Positions 37,495-42,506 of a stretch of DNA of 64,000 nucleotides are shown here, one piece after another. Under the pieces are notes generated by a model. The model saw nothing but the letters and a program-made list of their open reading frames with translations. It had not been told where the DNA came from and did not search any database. The position numbers and the translations under genes are program-made. Each line of letters starts with the position of its first letter. Positions within the stretch are counted from its first letter, which is position 1. This stretch comes from Methanolinea sp. (GTDB lineage Archaea > Halobacteriota > Methanomicrobia > Methanomicrobiales > Methanospirillaceae): contig JASFYI010000002.1 of NCBI GenBank assembly GCA_030055515.1, forward strand, positions 189,290 through 253,289, written 5' to 3'.

Positions 37495-37716
37495 TCACTT
37501 CCCCATTTTCACCAGGAACCGGTTCTCGGCAATCTCGTCCCACGAGACCTTGTACCCCTGTCGCGAGAAGGGGGAGCACGTGTTGTCCACCTGCTCGCGT
37601 GTCGCGTAGAACGTCACGGCCTCCCCCTCCCGGAGCTTGCCGAGCAGGATCTTCAGCGTGATCATCAGGTTGGTGCATGTCAGTTCAGTGAAATCGTGCG
37701 CTCCGTCATTCTCCAT
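37495..37716 (-). CDS. TusA/SirA-like sulfur carrier protein with atypical motif
   Basis: 73 residues with the TusA fold pattern: DFTELTCTNLMITLKILLGKLREGE, then a beta strand VTFYA and a C-terminal GYKVSWDEIAENRFLVKMGK. TusA proteins carry persulfide on the Cys of a Cys-Pro-x-Pro motif. Here the motif is CTNL: Cys14 is kept but both prolines are lost. A second cysteine is Cys47. It is last in the operon after the YedE halves and the DsrE-like fusion, supporting a role in sulfur or selenium transfer. Confidence 0.75.
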   Translation of the reverse strand: MENDGAHDFTELTCTNLMITLKILLGKLREGEAVTFYATREQVDNTCSPFSRQGYKVSWDEIAENRFLVKMGK

Positions 37717-37730
37717 TCAAATCCCCCTAC

Positions 37731-38915
37731 TCAGAAGAACAAAACGCGCATGGCAGGTCCTTTCGAATTACCCGGGTCCCTCGGGAAGAGGATCCCGGCC
37801 AGTGCCTCGTTCGTGATCTCCCGGACACCCGAACACGCGGTGCTGACTCCCCTCTCGCGTGCCGAGGGGAGGTGCACGAAGTAGGAGAGGGCAGGGATGT
37901 CGTTCGTGGCCGCGATCATTTCCTGTACATTGAAGAGTCGCCCGCCATCGGGCACTTCGTGGGTCCCGTGCAGGGCACAGACGCCGTCCTCGATGAAGAT
38001 GACGGTCGTCTCGATTCCATCCATGGCCGCGGCGATTGCGAGGGAGAGCCCCCCGAACGTCCACTCGGAGCAGTACGGGGTGTGCGTGATGAACACGGTC
38101 AGGCGGGGGGCCCCCTCTCCCCCGCACCCCGGGGGTATGGTCCACCCCGCCATATGCGAAACGATAGGGTGGAAAGCGGAAAAACGGGAGAGGATCTTGT
38201 TCAGGGGTCGTATCTCGATCTCCTGGATGCAGGACGCAGGCTCGCAGAAACCCGTCCCGGGATTCGGCTGGTAGTACCCCCGCGCCGTCGCGCACCGCGA
38301 ACATGCCGAAAACCACGGGTCCCGGCAGGACTGGACAGTATGCGCGGAGAGGGCGGAGACCCCCTTCCCGATGTTCTCGAACTCGGATGGGCGCTGCCCG
38401 TCGTGGAGGACATGGACGCCGTCGAGGTAGCAGTAGAGCTCGGGGTTCAGGCCCGCGTCGACGGCGCGGGAGAGGAACCGGAGCATGTAGACCGGGACCC
38501 TGCTCATGTAGGGGGGATAGCACAGGAGGAACGCAGCACCCCTCGTCCCTGCCCACTCATCCTCGATCGCGGAGACGAGTGCACCCCAGAAGGGGAAACG
38601 GCCGTCGGGGCATGACACCCGGACCTCCTCGGCACCCGGGGATATGGAACCGTGGAGGCCGTGCAGCCGGAGCTCGTCTGCATCCACGATGACCTCAAGG
38701 GAGGGCATCCGCGAGAGGGTGACCCAGACGGGACGGGTCCGGGCGTCCGCGAGGCTGTAGAGGGCATCGCCCGTGAGGAAGAACTTCAGAGACCACCCCC
38801 CGTCCTGAGAGAGTGCCCCCGTTCCTGCCGCACCGATCACTCCCGCGAGCCACTCCATGCGTTCCCTGCAGAGGGACTCACAGAAGAGGAATGTCGATGC
38901 CGGCACGGGGATCAT
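37731..38915 (-). CDS. Tandem DsrE/F/H-like fusion protein
   Basis: 394 residues that appear to hold three DsrE-like modules. Module 1 (about 1-90) has SLKFFLTGDALYSLADA and a VIVDADELRLHGL end. Module 2 (about 125-230) has AAFLLCYPPYMSRVPVY, CYLDGVHVLHDGQ and SCRDPWFSACSRCATARGY, the latter like the conserved DsrE cysteine end. Module 3 (about 280-394) has LTVFITHTPYCSEWTFGGLSLAIAAA and VIFIEDGVCAL. TusBCD/DsrEFH normally form a complex of separate paralogues handing persulfide from TusA. Its start overlaps the second YedE half (ATGA) and TusA follows 14 bases later. Module boundaries were set by eye. Confidence 0.68.
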   Translation of the reverse strand: MIPVPASTFLFCESLCRERMEWLAGVIGAAGTGALSQDGGWSLKFFLTGDALYSLADARTRPVWVTLSRMPSLEVIVDADELRLHGLHGSISPGAEEVRVSCPDGRFPFWGALVSAIEDEWAGTRGAAFLLCYPPYMSRVPVYMLRFLSRAVDAGLNPELYCYLDGVHVLHDGQRPSEFENIGKGVSALSAHTVQSCRDPWFSACSRCATARGYYQPNPGTGFCEPASCIQEIEIRPLNKILSRFSAFHPIVSHMAGWTIPPGCGGEGAPRLTVFITHTPYCSEWTFGGLSLAIAAAMDGIETTVIFIEDGVCALHGTHEVPDGGRLFNVQEMIAATNDIPALSYFVHLPSARERGVSTACSGVREITNEALAGILFPRDPGNSKGPAMRVLFF

Positions 38916-39436
38916 GCCCCCAGACCAAGGCTTTTTGCGAGGGAGACGACCCACCCCGAGATGAAGGCGGCGAAGAGAGGGGACGCGACACACATCCCGA
39001 GGAGGAAGAACCCCGCCTTGTAATTCCCCTCGGACGCCATCACGGCCTGACGGAGGGGGCACCCGCCGAGGAGGACGCAGATAAACCCGACGAGGAAGCC
39101 GGAGAGCACGGCCAGGAAGAGGGATGCTGCGGGGCCGAGCCCCGCGGGGGCTCCCGGCACGGGGACGAGGAACCCGCTCGTGAGTGCCCAGGGGAAGTGC
39201 TCCATTGCCGCGGGGGTGAGGATCCAGAAGGCGAGGGAGCCGAGGAACGAGAAGATGATCAGGGCGACGTACCCCGAGAGTATCCGCGTGTGGCGGAAGA
39301 GGAAGAAGTCCCTGAACCCCCCTATGGAGCAGAAACCGGAGCGCTGGGCGAGGTACCCGGCGAGGATACCGAGGAGGAGGGTCAGCGCGGGCACCGCGTA
39401 GACCGCGATCTCCCTCGGGAAGAGACCGGCCGCCAT
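38912..39436 (-). CDS. YeeE/YedE-type transporter, second half
   Basis: 174 residues, about five membrane helices. YedE-family hallmarks are RSGFCSIGGFRDFFLFR near residue 32 and VLLGGCPLRQAVMASEGN near 125, each with a conserved Cys that relays thiosulfate or a selenium/sulfur species in characterised relatives. Single-gene YeeE proteins are about twice this length; here the channel is encoded by two overlapping genes (TGATG with the first half, ATGA with the DsrE-like gene). Confidence 0.85.
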   Translation of the reverse strand: MAAGLFPREIAVYAVPALTLLLGILAGYLAQRSGFCSIGGFRDFFLFRHTRILSGYVALIIFSFLGSLAFWILTPAAMEHFPWALTSGFLVPVPGAPAGLGPAASLFLAVLSGFLVGFICVLLGGCPLRQAVMASEGNYKAGFFLLGMCVASPLFAAFISGWVVSLAKSLGLGA

Positions 39437-39981
39437 CAGGACGCCTCCCGTTCGGCCTTCTTGAGCAGCAGGACCGTGCCCGCGATGACACCGAGGGCCA
39501 TTGCCCCGATGAAGATCAGGGCGATGAAGTCTCCGTAGCCCGCCCGGAGCGCTGCCCGGTAAGGACACCCCCCGAAGAGCATCGCGAGGACGAAGACGGA
39601 AAATCCCCCCGCGAAGGAGACGAGGTACTCTCTCGCATTCCCTCTCCGCACAACGTGCTCCCGGTTGACGCGTGCGGAGACGTGTGCACCGATCAGGACA
39701 CCGGCGACGCTCATCACGGGGAGGACGGCATTCTTCGAGATTGGTGCGAGTGCGAGGGCAGTCCCGGCGAGAATATTGGTCATGCCGTTCACGAGGTCAC
39801 GCGTGTGGCACGCGACGCAGAACCCGTAGGCCTCCGGACCCCCTGCGGTTATGAGGAGCGATTGCATGAGTGCAGCAAGAATTCCAATCACAGCACCGAG
39901 AAACGCGGGATGCCGGGCGAGGGGGGATGCGTGGCGGCACACGGCGTCACGCAGGCTGCATATTCCCATGAGTTGGTACAT
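39436..39981 (-). CDS. YeeE/YedE-type transporter, first half
   Basis: 181 residues with about five membrane helices and a paired-cysteine motif GFCVACHTRDLVNGM near residue 54 plus MLFGGCPYRAALRAGYG near 138. Together with the next gene it forms one YedE-like sulfur or selenium compound importer. An alternative ATG at 39969 fits the TATA spacing slightly better (AAAATATTATC on the minus strand, about 40000-40009). It is first gene of the operon YedE1-YedE2-DsrE fusion-TusA and divergent from the arsenic permease. Confidence 0.84.
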   Translation of the reverse strand: MYQLMGICSLRDAVCRHASPLARHPAFLGAVIGILAALMQSLLITAGGPEAYGFCVACHTRDLVNGMTNILAGTALALAPISKNAVLPVMSVAGVLIGAHVSARVNREHVVRRGNAREYLVSFAGGFSVFVLAMLFGGCPYRAALRAGYGDFIALIFIGAMALGVIAGTVLLLKKAEREAS

Positions 39982-40095: not shown

Positions 40096-41163
40096 ATGGT
40101 TGCGGGAGCGATCAACGATTTCTCTGCTGCCGGACAGTTTTTCCTCGTCATCACACTGGAGCTTGTCCTCCTCTTCGTGGGAGTGAGCTTCCTCGTGGGG
40201 CTCATCAGGGAATACCTCCCCGAGGAGAGGATACGCCGGGCGCTCTCGTCCCGGCACAGGGTCACGGGGACGGCGATCGGTGCATTCTTCGGTGCCCTCA
40301 CGCCCTTTTGCTCCTGCTCCACGATCCCCGTGCTCGCCGGTCTCCTCAACTCCCGCGTCCCGTTCGGTGCGTGCATGGCATTCCTCCTCGCATCCCCGCT
40401 CCTGAACCCGGTCATCGTTTTCATGGTGCTGGCATTCTTCGGGCCAATCCCCACGCTCCTCTACGGCACAGTCACGTTTGGCATCGCGGTCGCATCGGGC
40501 ATTATCCTCGAGGACAGGAATTTCATCCGGTTCGTGAAGCCCCTCGGACTCGGAAAGACCCTGCTGCCACAGGGTACGGGATCGGGGTGTTGTGCCGACA
40601 ACTCCGTTCTCCCGGAAAGTGGGCATGCGGGCTGCTGTCCGGGAGCTGCGGGCACGGCCACACAGGCAGCCGGGTGCGGGTGTTCGTGCAGTGCCGCAGG
40701 GACCCCCGCGGACACGTGGGCCGGCGCCACCCACGCGCGCAGGATGAGGTCCGCCCTCGGTTTCTCCCTCCGCATCTTCCGCCAGGTACTCCCGTACCTC
40801 ATCCTCGGGGCAGCGGCCGGGGCATTCATCTATGGGTTCGTGCCCGAAGACCTGATTGTCTCCCTCGCGGGTCCGGAAAACCCCCTTGCCATTCCGGCCG
40901 CTGCAGTTATCGGAATTCCCATGTACATCCGGGCTGAGACAATCATTCCCGTCAGTGCGGTCCTCCTCGCGAAGGGAATGGGGCTTGGTGCCGTCATGGC
41001 ACTCATCATCGGGGGGGCGGGGGCAAGCATTCCCGAGGTGACCCTTCTTGCATCCATCTTCGAGAGGAGGCTCGTCGCGACGTTCGTTGCAGTCGTCCTC
41101 GGTGTGGCCATCAGCACGGGGGTCGTCCTGCAGCTCATGCAGACGGCAGGTGTCCTTGGATGA
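40096..41163 (+). CDS. arsP: ArsP-type permease with cysteine-rich loop
   Basis: 355 residues, COG0701-type permease of two homologous halves totalling eight to ten membrane helices. The TPFCSCSTIPVLAGLL motif near residue 75 is the family signature; the second half has IPMYIRAETIIPVSAVLLAKGMGLG and GGAGASIPEV. A central hydrophilic loop (about 165-215) is rich in cysteine (GCC, GCC, GCGCSCS), probably binding thiophilic metal(loid). Characterised ArsP proteins export trivalent organoarsenicals; related proteins move Cu/Zn. Linkage to arsR and arsC favours arsenic. Confidence 0.82.
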   Translation: MVAGAINDFSAAGQFFLVITLELVLLFVGVSFLVGLIREYLPEERIRRALSSRHRVTGTAIGAFFGALTPFCSCSTIPVLAGLLNSRVPFGACMAFLLASPLLNPVIVFMVLAFFGPIPTLLYGTVTFGIAVASGIILEDRNFIRFVKPLGLGKTLLPQGTGSGCCADNSVLPESGHAGCCPGAAGTATQAAGCGCSCSAAGTPADTWAGATHARRMRSALGFSLRIFRQVLPYLILGAAAGAFIYGFVPEDLIVSLAGPENPLAIPAAAVIGIPMYIRAETIIPVSAVLLAKGMGLGAVMALIIGGAGASIPEVTLLASIFERRLVATFVAVVLGVAISTGVVLQLMQTAGVLG

Positions 41164-41204
41164 GGGGAACCGAATTTATCTCCGGTCACCAATCTGGTTT
41201 GTGC

Positions 41205-41603
41205 ATGACTGGGAAGAGAGGCCAGCACCGCGTATTCCCCCTGTCCCGGTATACCACCATCCTCAGGGCGCTATCCGATGAGACGAGGCTTGGGATATAC
41301 CTCCTCCTCGGCAACGGGGAGCTCTGCGTCTGCCACATCCAGGCCGCCCTCGGGACGACGCAGACGAAGGTCTCCCGCCACCTCGGGATTCTCCGGAACG
41401 CCGGCCTCGTCACGGCCCGGAGGGAGGGTCTCTGGGTGTATTACAGGAGGGCCGATCCGGCACCCGCATCGGTCCGAGCGTTTGTCAGGGAGCTTGCGCG
41501 GCTCCTTGACAGGGACCCGGTCATCTCCGTCCCGGCGGAGAATGAGGGGCAGTGTGGATGCAGAGAGGGTGAGCAAGACCATGGGAAAGAGGCTCGTCAT
41601 TGA
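41205..41603 (+). CDS. arsR: ArsR-family metalloid-responsive repressor
   Basis: 132-residue winged-helix repressor. LSDETRLGIYLLLGNGELCVCHIQ contains ELCVCHI, the ArsR-type Cys-x-Cys As(III) site (consensus ELCVCDL). The recognition helix is TQTKVSRHLGILRNAGLV, with wing REGLWVYYRR. A C-terminal Cys pair (QCGCREGE) may add ligands. ATG 41205 is about 28 bases after a TATA tract (AATTTATC, 41174-41181) and probably leaderless; a start at 41160 overlapping the permease stop is possible but lacks family support. Confidence 0.9.
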   Translation: MTGKRGQHRVFPLSRYTTILRALSDETRLGIYLLLGNGELCVCHIQAALGTTQTKVSRHLGILRNAGLVTARREGLWVYYRRADPAPASVRAFVRELARLLDRDPVISVPAENEGQCGCREGEQDHGKEARH

Positions 41604-42024
41604 GTGGAAGCACATCGGAGACGATGTGAGGGGCACGTGCGAGCGGTGCAGCGAAACGGGCGACGCGATCCGCGAGGTCCTCCGGGACCTCGGTCCGTAC
41701 TTCACGGAGAAGAACGTGTCGCCGGAGTTCCGCGAGACAGTCCTCCCCGGGGAGGAGATCGCATTCTCGAACACGGTTACCATCAACGGGAGGCCGATCG
41801 AGGAGTACCTGGGGGGATCGGAGGTGATTCACACCCCGTGTCAATCCTGCGCGTGTCTCACGGGAGAGGACGAGGCATACTGTCGTGCAATCGTGCATGG
41901 CGGGAACCGCTACGAGGCTATCCCGCCCGACCTGATCAGGCGTGCGTTCGTCGCCGCCGTGGAGAGAGACGGCCCGACGTGCGGGTGCGACTGCGGGTGC
42001 GGGGAAGGGGGCGAGTGCCCGTGA
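41581..42024 (+). CDS. DUF2703 cysteine-rich protein of the arsenic cluster
   Basis: 147 residues, MGKRLVIEWKHIGDDVRGTCERCSETGDAI. This thioredoxin-like DUF2703 family pattern has a CERCSETG motif at residues about 20-27, a CQSCACLTG group near 105, and a cysteine-rich tail CGCDCGCGEGGEC. Its ATG overlaps the arsR end, so it is co-expressed. The family occurs in arsenic and heavy-metal operons, but no activity is assigned. The tail looks suited to metalloid chelation (inference). Confidence 0.82.
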   Translation: MGKRLVIEWKHIGDDVRGTCERCSETGDAIREVLRDLGPYFTEKNVSPEFRETVLPGEEIAFSNTVTINGRPIEEYLGGSEVIHTPCQSCACLTGEDEAYCRAIVHGGNRYEAIPPDLIRRAFVAAVERDGPTCGCDCGCGEGGECP

Positions 42025-42080
42025 GCGGCAAGACACGCGGCCGGGGGCAGGCTCCCTCCGGGATTGTGGAGTGACCATCC

Positions 42081-42506
42081 GTGGAGAGGAAGAAGGACGT
42101 CCTCTTCGTCTGCACGCACAACGCTGCCCGGTCCCAGATGGCCGAGGGGTATCTGCGGGCGCGCTACGGCGACCGGTACAACGCCTACTCGGCGGGGACG
42201 ACGGCATCGTCGGTCAATCCCCTCGCGGTCGAGGCGATGAGGGAGATCGGCATCGACATCACGGGCCAGCGTTCCAAGACCCTCGCGGAATTCGCCGGGA
42301 GGGAGATGGACATCGTGGTGACCGTGTGCGACTCCGCGCGTGCGACCTGCCCCTTCTTCCCGTGGGCACGCGAGACGGTCCACGTCTCGATCCCCGACCC
42401 CGCGGGGGGCACGATAGAGACGTTCCGGAAGGTCCGGGACGAGATCGTGGCGTGGATCGACCGGTACTTTGGGGGAGAGGGACCTCCGGGAGGGCGCGAG
42501 GCCTAG
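42081..42506 (+). CDS. arsC: Arsenate reductase, low-molecular-weight phosphatase type
   Basis: Reduces As(V) to As(III) with thioredoxin. 141 residues from a GTG with a GGAGTGA site six bases upstream. The P-loop VCTHNAARSQMAEGYLR near residue 10 (C-x5-R-S) holds the nucleophile, and DIVVTVCDSARATCPFFP near residue 76 supplies the two further cysteines of the redox cascade; SIPDPAGG follows. It is last gene of the arsenic cluster. Confidence 0.92.
   Translation: MERKKDVLFVCTHNAARSQMAEGYLRARYGDRYNAYSAGTTASSVNPLAVEAMREIGIDITGQRSKTLAEFAGREMDIVVTVCDSARATCPFFPWARETVHVSIPDPAGGTIETFRKVRDEIVAWIDRYFGGEGPPGGREA

Follow-up and report, generated by a model that had tools for sequence, protein, structure and literature searches.

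A conserved operon of Methanolinea with a split YedE importer, a DsrE-like fusion and a TusA-fold protein as a candidate archaeal system of chalcogen import and relay

Four adjoining genes in the genome of a Methanolinea species, encoding a split YedE-type importer, a long DsrE-like protein and a small TusA-like protein, raise the question of which chalcogen they bring into the cell and which enzyme receives it. Formylmethanofuran dehydrogenase (FMD), the enzyme with which methanogenesis from CO2 begins, depends on a sulfido ligand bound to its tungsten or molybdenum. In FMDs this ligand is axial (PMC11656701), in E. coli formate dehydrogenase (FDH) it is installed by FdhD with the cysteine desulfurase IscS (PMC12140954), and Mo-cofactor synthesis is affected by TusA-type proteins (PMC7759655). 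In the literature searched we found no account of sulfido-ligand delivery to the FMD of methanogens. The DNA analyzed here is a stretch of 64,000 nucleotides (the window), part of a genome of 1.757 Mb that is 99.1% complete. Related loci, 59 in number, were collected by scanning genomes, one for each species, and the gene content of the window genome and of its relatives was established by targeted searches.

The operon occupies positions 37495-39981 of the window and comprises four intact open reading frames on the minus strand (Table 1), in the order YedE first half, YedE second half, 394-residue fusion and 73-residue TusA-like protein. A previous sequence-only reading of this DNA had the anatomy of the four-gene operon right in the main, with the open reading frames where they were found and on the correct strand; the ATGA or TGATG overlaps which it described are present at the first junction (TGATG, 1-nt overlap, between the YedE halves) and at the second (ATGA, 4-nt overlap, between the second half and the fusion), but the fusion and the TusA-like gene are separated by a gap of 14 nt. 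Apart from a divergent operon of ars type the genes stand alone, and no gene for a Mo/W enzyme is found next to them. The ars-like operon (40096-42506, plus strand) has a 114-bp intergenic region in common with the cassette, encodes an ArsP_1 permease (PF03773), an ArsR regulator, a cysteine-rich protein and an LMWPc/ArsC-type protein, and also accompanies the cassette in loci L095-L098 (partially in L098).

Table 1 Features of the putative import-and-relay operon, in window coordinates
Feature	Position	Strand	Remarks
YedE first half	39436..39981	-	181 aa; conserved CVACHTRD and GGCPYR motifs
YedE second half	38912..39436	-	174 aa; conserved QRSGFCSIGGFRD and GGCPLR motifs
DsrE-like fusion	37731..38915	-	394 aa
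Fusion module 1, residues 1-122	38550..38915	-	putative DsrH/TusB position, by elimination
Fusion module 2, residues 123-268	38112..38549	-	DsrE/TusD-like, predicted catalytic module
Cys205 codon	38301..38303	-	aligned to DsrE/TusD active cysteine, C-x6-RG
Fusion module 3, residues 269-394	37734..38111	-	DsrF/TusC-like; PF02635
Putative TusA-fold carrier, CTNL motif	37495..37716	-	73 aa; Cys14 codon 37675-37677

Among named relatives, those nearest to the fusion belong to Methanolinea (Methanoregulaceae). A search for the same four-gene order in other Methanomicrobiales, which the sequence-only reading had proposed, revealed it in 18 other Methanolinea-type loci, with fusion proteins 47-68% identical to that of the window. 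Such conservation of gene order far exceeds chance and confirms that the operon is real and conserved. The window-type fusions make up one side of a branch with a support of 100/100. A longer, five-gene form consists of YedE, YedE, a canonical TusA (CPYC or CPFC), the fusion and the CTNL protein, the canonical TusA being situated between the importer and the fusion; it has been found in six Loki/Bathyarchaeota loci and in most of the Methanoregula loci with YedE. The system was previously described as self-contained, which fits the Methanolinea lineage only, since the fuller cassette also carries the canonical TusA. In four genomes of family f6 (L175-L178) the cassette lacks the fusion and forms a co-directional run of genes for cysteine desulfurase, FdhD, YedE, YedE, TusA, a CTNL-type (CTYL) protein and OsmC; in L175 and L177 this run adjoins fmd and sulfite-reductase-like genes. 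In many five-gene loci the CTNL gene is followed by one for a conserved protein of some 115 aa that carries a CIECGLG-type motif and belongs to no known family (cluster c16; e.g. L113:6031-6387 and L140:10488-10847); behind the window operon it was not found.

Both importer halves matched Sulf_transp (PF04143) and seleno_YedE (TIGR04112) in Pfam/NCBIfam, with better scores for TIGR04112. The first half matched PF04143 at 1e-7 and positions 4-135 of TIGR04112 at 1.8e-16, the second half positions 182-307 of TIGR04112 at 1.3e-22; the two correspond to complementary parts of the model, and each alone stays below its full-length cut-off of 200 bits. In the alignment to E. coli TsuA the first half covers the C-terminal half of that protein (198-343) and keeps the GGC cysteine in place; the second half falls on TsuA 8-106 and on residues 224-339 of E. 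coli YedE, and here both cysteines coincide. The FC cysteine of TsuA and its GGC cysteines have their counterparts in the window proteins. Since the halves are swapped in comparison with TsuA and the second gene corresponds to YedE 224-339, the gene order is of the YedE and not of the YeeE type. Both halves of the split importer proposed earlier have therefore been found, but the split itself is not new, as archaeal YedE encoded by two genes has been published by Lin et al. 2015 (PMC5322559). The two halves probably pair into one transporter. With the YeeE-YeeD (TsuA-TsuB) thiosulfate importer the operon shares homologous membrane halves, key cysteines and a small TusA-fold partner; it differs in that the halves are separate genes in permuted order, the partner lacks CPxP and a DsrE-type fusion is added. 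The importer is likewise encoded as two halves in PmpA/PmpB, another half-size case in the YeeE family (PMC11582611), but Pmp proteins have about 130 aa and 4 TM helices, whereas the window halves of 181 and 174 aa contain more conserved cysteines and are accompanied by putative relay proteins. Deletion of yedE in Methanococcus maripaludis gave no clear transport phenotype (PMC11097638).

The better match of both halves to seleno_YedE, together with the YedE order of the halves, brings selenium into consideration as the cargo. In three of the six Loki/Bathyarchaeota loci the cassette adjoins selD (L113:6619, L118:10882 and L115:4497), in each case with an in-frame UGA at the catalytic position, i.e. 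a selenoprotein gene, and SelD scored above its cut-off in five of the six genomes. Lin et al. 2015 (PMC5322559) connected split archaeal YedE with selenium users and named Sec lyase-type enzymes, CoA activase and subunits of 2-hydroxyglutaryl-CoA dehydratase as its partners; similar ones occur in Methanoregula loci. Accordingly, the cassette might serve selenium uptake in methanogens that use the element without SelD, for instance as a ligand of Mo/W enzymes or in some unknown way. Against this stands the lack of any SelD above the cut-off in 61 genomes (that of the window and 60 relatives) and of any SelD at E<1e-30 in eight cassette-bearing methanogen genomes, and most of the fmdB and fdhA open reading frames in these loci have their full length and no UGA, so selenium uptake appears unlikely as the role of the cassette. 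The presence of SelD in Loki/Bathyarchaeota and its absence from the methanogens rather make the cassette look like a selenium-type module working without SelD in the latter.

A double-cubane-cluster reductase and an activase beside the Methanoregula cassette (L134:11701-12852, L181:8909-9727) match partners from bacterial selenium loci. In a few relatives, genes close to cysteine desulfurase-fdhD pairs encode SelD-like proteins; these were discarded as SelD candidates, as they scored below the SelD cut-off and the SelD signature was absent by eye. Proteins of AIR-synthase type with sub-cut-off SelD scores occur in L189-L192, in three of the four at no more than about 5 kb from fdhD or from a cysteine desulfurase-fdhD pair.

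The selenium-associated YedE/YedF pair (TIGR04112, TIGR03527; FdhT/FdhU in Campylobacter) is also built of a YedE-type importer with TusA-fold and DsrE-fold partners, and further shared traits are the selD adjacent to the cassette in Loki/Bathyarchaeota and the known splitting of YedE in archaea. It is distinguished from the operon by the absence of SelD in the methanogens, by the CTNL instead of the CPxP motif and by the fusion of three DsrE-type modules. No match to YedF (TIGR03527) was found in the window, where the TusA-like and DsrE-like parts are encoded by separate genes.

The 394-residue protein, nicknamed DsrE3 for convenience and distinct from the published DsrE3, had been read as three DsrE-like modules. 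Pfam recognizes only one DsrE domain in it (residues 272-360), and PF02635 (DsrE) is present in 55/55 of the fusion relatives. When its structure was predicted for comparison with TusBCD, as earlier suggested, the AlphaFold2 model (pLDDT 91.3, pTM 0.92) displayed the element order b-a-b-a-a-b-a-b three times, and the best PDB folds found by Foldseek were TusBCD (2d1p), YchN and DsrEFH (2hy5). Modules 2 and 3 can be recognized by sequence: the family profile of module 2 aligns to DsrE 2hy5_A (0.028) and to YchN 1jx7 (0.0061), that of module 3 to DsrF 2hy5_B (0.0011). Cys205 is kept in 50 of the 55 relatives and replaced in the other five. For module 1 the profile search of PDB and Pfam was negative, with neither DsrH nor DsrE nor another relevant family matched; comparing the modules by HH with the individual E. 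coli TusB, TusC and TusD sequences gave signals too weak to name it, and phmmer with single proteins against PDB sequences returned nothing useful. The threefold reading thus stands for modules 2 and 3 by sequence and for all three by the repeats of the model, whereas module 1 has no DsrE match at the sequence level; by elimination and from the repeated secondary structure in the model it would be the DsrH/TusB counterpart. The modularity is supported by one related genome in which the fusion is cut into proteins of 285 and 129 aa, with the break between modules 2 and 3.

The fusion has in common with DsrEFH (type I and II) and TusBCD a DsrE module with the active cysteine, a DsrF-like module and a predicted compact body of three modules. 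In those systems three subunits form a heterohexamer, whereas here a single fused reading frame is found, without dsrAB in the context seen and with a module in the DsrH position that is not recognizable by sequence. In the literature searched, which lay outside subscription journals, we found no report of a fused DsrE-DsrH protein in methanogens or of YedE in Methanoregula. As TusBCD are the closest solved folds, the sulfur might be relayed to tRNA thiolation or another TusBCD-type target, separately from Mo/W enzymes; no tRNA-modification gene is present among the named or annotated conserved neighbour clusters, however, and the patchy presence of the system within one order fits poorly with a general tRNA function, which makes such a destination very improbable.

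The 73-residue protein alone had no match in Pfam or NCBIfam, and PF01206 matches 21 of its 27 relatives (E up to 1; best 4.2e-8). Its AlphaFold2 model (pLDDT 86.6) has the TusA order b-a-b-a-b-b, and the best PDB folds are SirA-like 3hz7, the YeeD part of YeeE-YeeD (8j4c/8k1r) and IscS-bound TusA (3lvj). The TusA fold, named earlier as a point to be checked, is therefore present in the model, and the CTNL motif with the loss of both prolines of CPxP was read correctly. The cis-proline of CPxP is thought to make the TusA cysteine reactive. Among the 27 CTNL relatives the motif cysteine, the flanking Thr residues, Met18, Leu21 and Lys22 are invariant; the motif has the form C-T-[NS]-[LF] in relatives, CTNL in the window and CTYL in the f6 genomes. 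The prolines are absent throughout, Loki/Bathyarchaeota included, which argues for an old subfamily and not for local decay, and as the fuller cassette also has a canonical TusA, the CTNL protein represents a second, separate TusA-fold subfamily instead of the operon's own TusA in decay. The window genome lacks canonical TusA (PF01206), and so do, with one exception, the other genomes of the same genus that were searched.

The acceptor is suggested by the neighbours of the relatives, which the sequence-only reading had missed together with the selenium type of the cassette and the absence of SelD, its interpretation being half right. In methanogens outside Methanolinea, fmd, moeA, fdhA or fdhD lies within the fetched flank of 24 of the 25 stand-alone copies of the fusion and of 9 of the 10 copies with YedE, i.e. 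33/35 copies are near genes for formylmethanofuran dehydrogenase or formate dehydrogenase, moeA or fdhD, counted over loci that are not independent of one another. The copies are placed in at least three ways: behind genes for FMD and nitroreductase, in divergent orientation to moeA, or with an fmd operon on either side. These neighbours point to maturation of Mo/W-bis-pterin enzymes as the most likely acceptor. Only 1 of the 18 window-type loci and none of the six Loki/Bathyarchaeota cassettes has a Mo/W gene beside it, so this destination is taken over from paralogues or from variants of the cassette, and for the window operon itself the acceptor may be proposed from the neighbours of its relatives. 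Elsewhere the window genome encodes two strong matches to the FMD catalytic subunit, a cysteine desulfurase and FdhD. A replacement of FdhD by the fusion was considered and given up because FdhD is found in 59/61 genomes, whether the cassette is present or not.

In L145:8995-16774 and L149:3920-12000 a stand-alone fusion heads an fmd operon that ends in nitroreductase and fdhD genes. TusA variants with SPFC or SPYC, the first motif cysteine being replaced by serine, are encoded directly upstream of stand-alone fusions adjoining moeA (L124, L130, L131, L141, L147 and L148).

The cassette could instead feed bulk sulfur assimilation: the sulfane sulfur of imported thiosulfate or polysulfide would be split off by the TusA-fold protein, and the sulfite reduced, in relatives, by the neighbouring sulfite-reductase-like protein. 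YeeE-YeeD offers a precedent (PMC11073785), and in the majority of Methanoregula and f6 loci a NIR_SIR protein is encoded beside the cassette. Window-type cassettes, however, have no sulfite-reductase-like gene beside them, and the stand-alone fusions next to fmd and moeA are left unexplained, so that we regard assimilation as a rather doubtful main role.

On balance we somewhat favour, as an explanation of the whole, an archaeal operon for chalcogen import and relay with Mo/W-enzyme maturation as the most likely acceptor. Counting against it, besides the lack of Mo/W neighbours in window-type loci, are the loss of Cys205 in five of the 55 relatives, the missing cis-proline of CPxP in the CTNL protein, the occurrence of FdhD with and without the cassette, and the outcome of the yedE deletion in M. 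maripaludis. The paired YedE halves would bring in a species of sulfane-sulfur type, possibly thiosulfate and possibly a selenium analogue. The CTNL protein would receive the atom at the importer's inner mouth, on Cys14, as YeeD, the thiosulfate partner of YeeE (PMC11073785), does for YeeE. From Cys14 the atom would move on to Cys205 of the fusion, which lies in its DsrE-like module, the other two modules serving as built-in structural partners. The fusion would then hand it, possibly via FdhD, to sulfur-ligated Mo/W-bis-pterin enzymes, the formylmethanofuran and formate dehydrogenases. The relay is modelled by analogy on YeeE-YeeD and on the DsrE/TusA relays, and the substrate, the direction of transfer and the acceptor are presumed along with it. 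Import and relay of sulfur or selenium as such we hold to be likely, and sulfur is fairly probably the main cargo in methanogens; Mo/W-enzyme maturation as the main destination is proposed tentatively.

What the operon adds to the known YedE-linked import and relay of chalcogens is a DsrEFH-like protein in fused form and a TusA subfamily that lacks CPxP. A YedE cassette that is linked to selenium elsewhere persists here in organisms without SelD, and it is this absence, taken with the link of the relatives to the Mo/W enzymes of methanogenesis, that gives the system its interest and suggests a use for the carried atom. With an importer and a putative persulfide relay whose relatives lie beside fmd, moeA, fdhD and cysteine desulfurase genes, the question of ligand delivery becomes testable. 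It is conceivable, though unlikely, that the cassette, freed of SelD, supplies the Mo/W centre of FMD and FDH directly with imported sulfur, or even with selenium. If this were true, the enzyme that starts methanogenesis would owe its sixth ligand to an imported chalcogen and not only to cysteine desulfurase.
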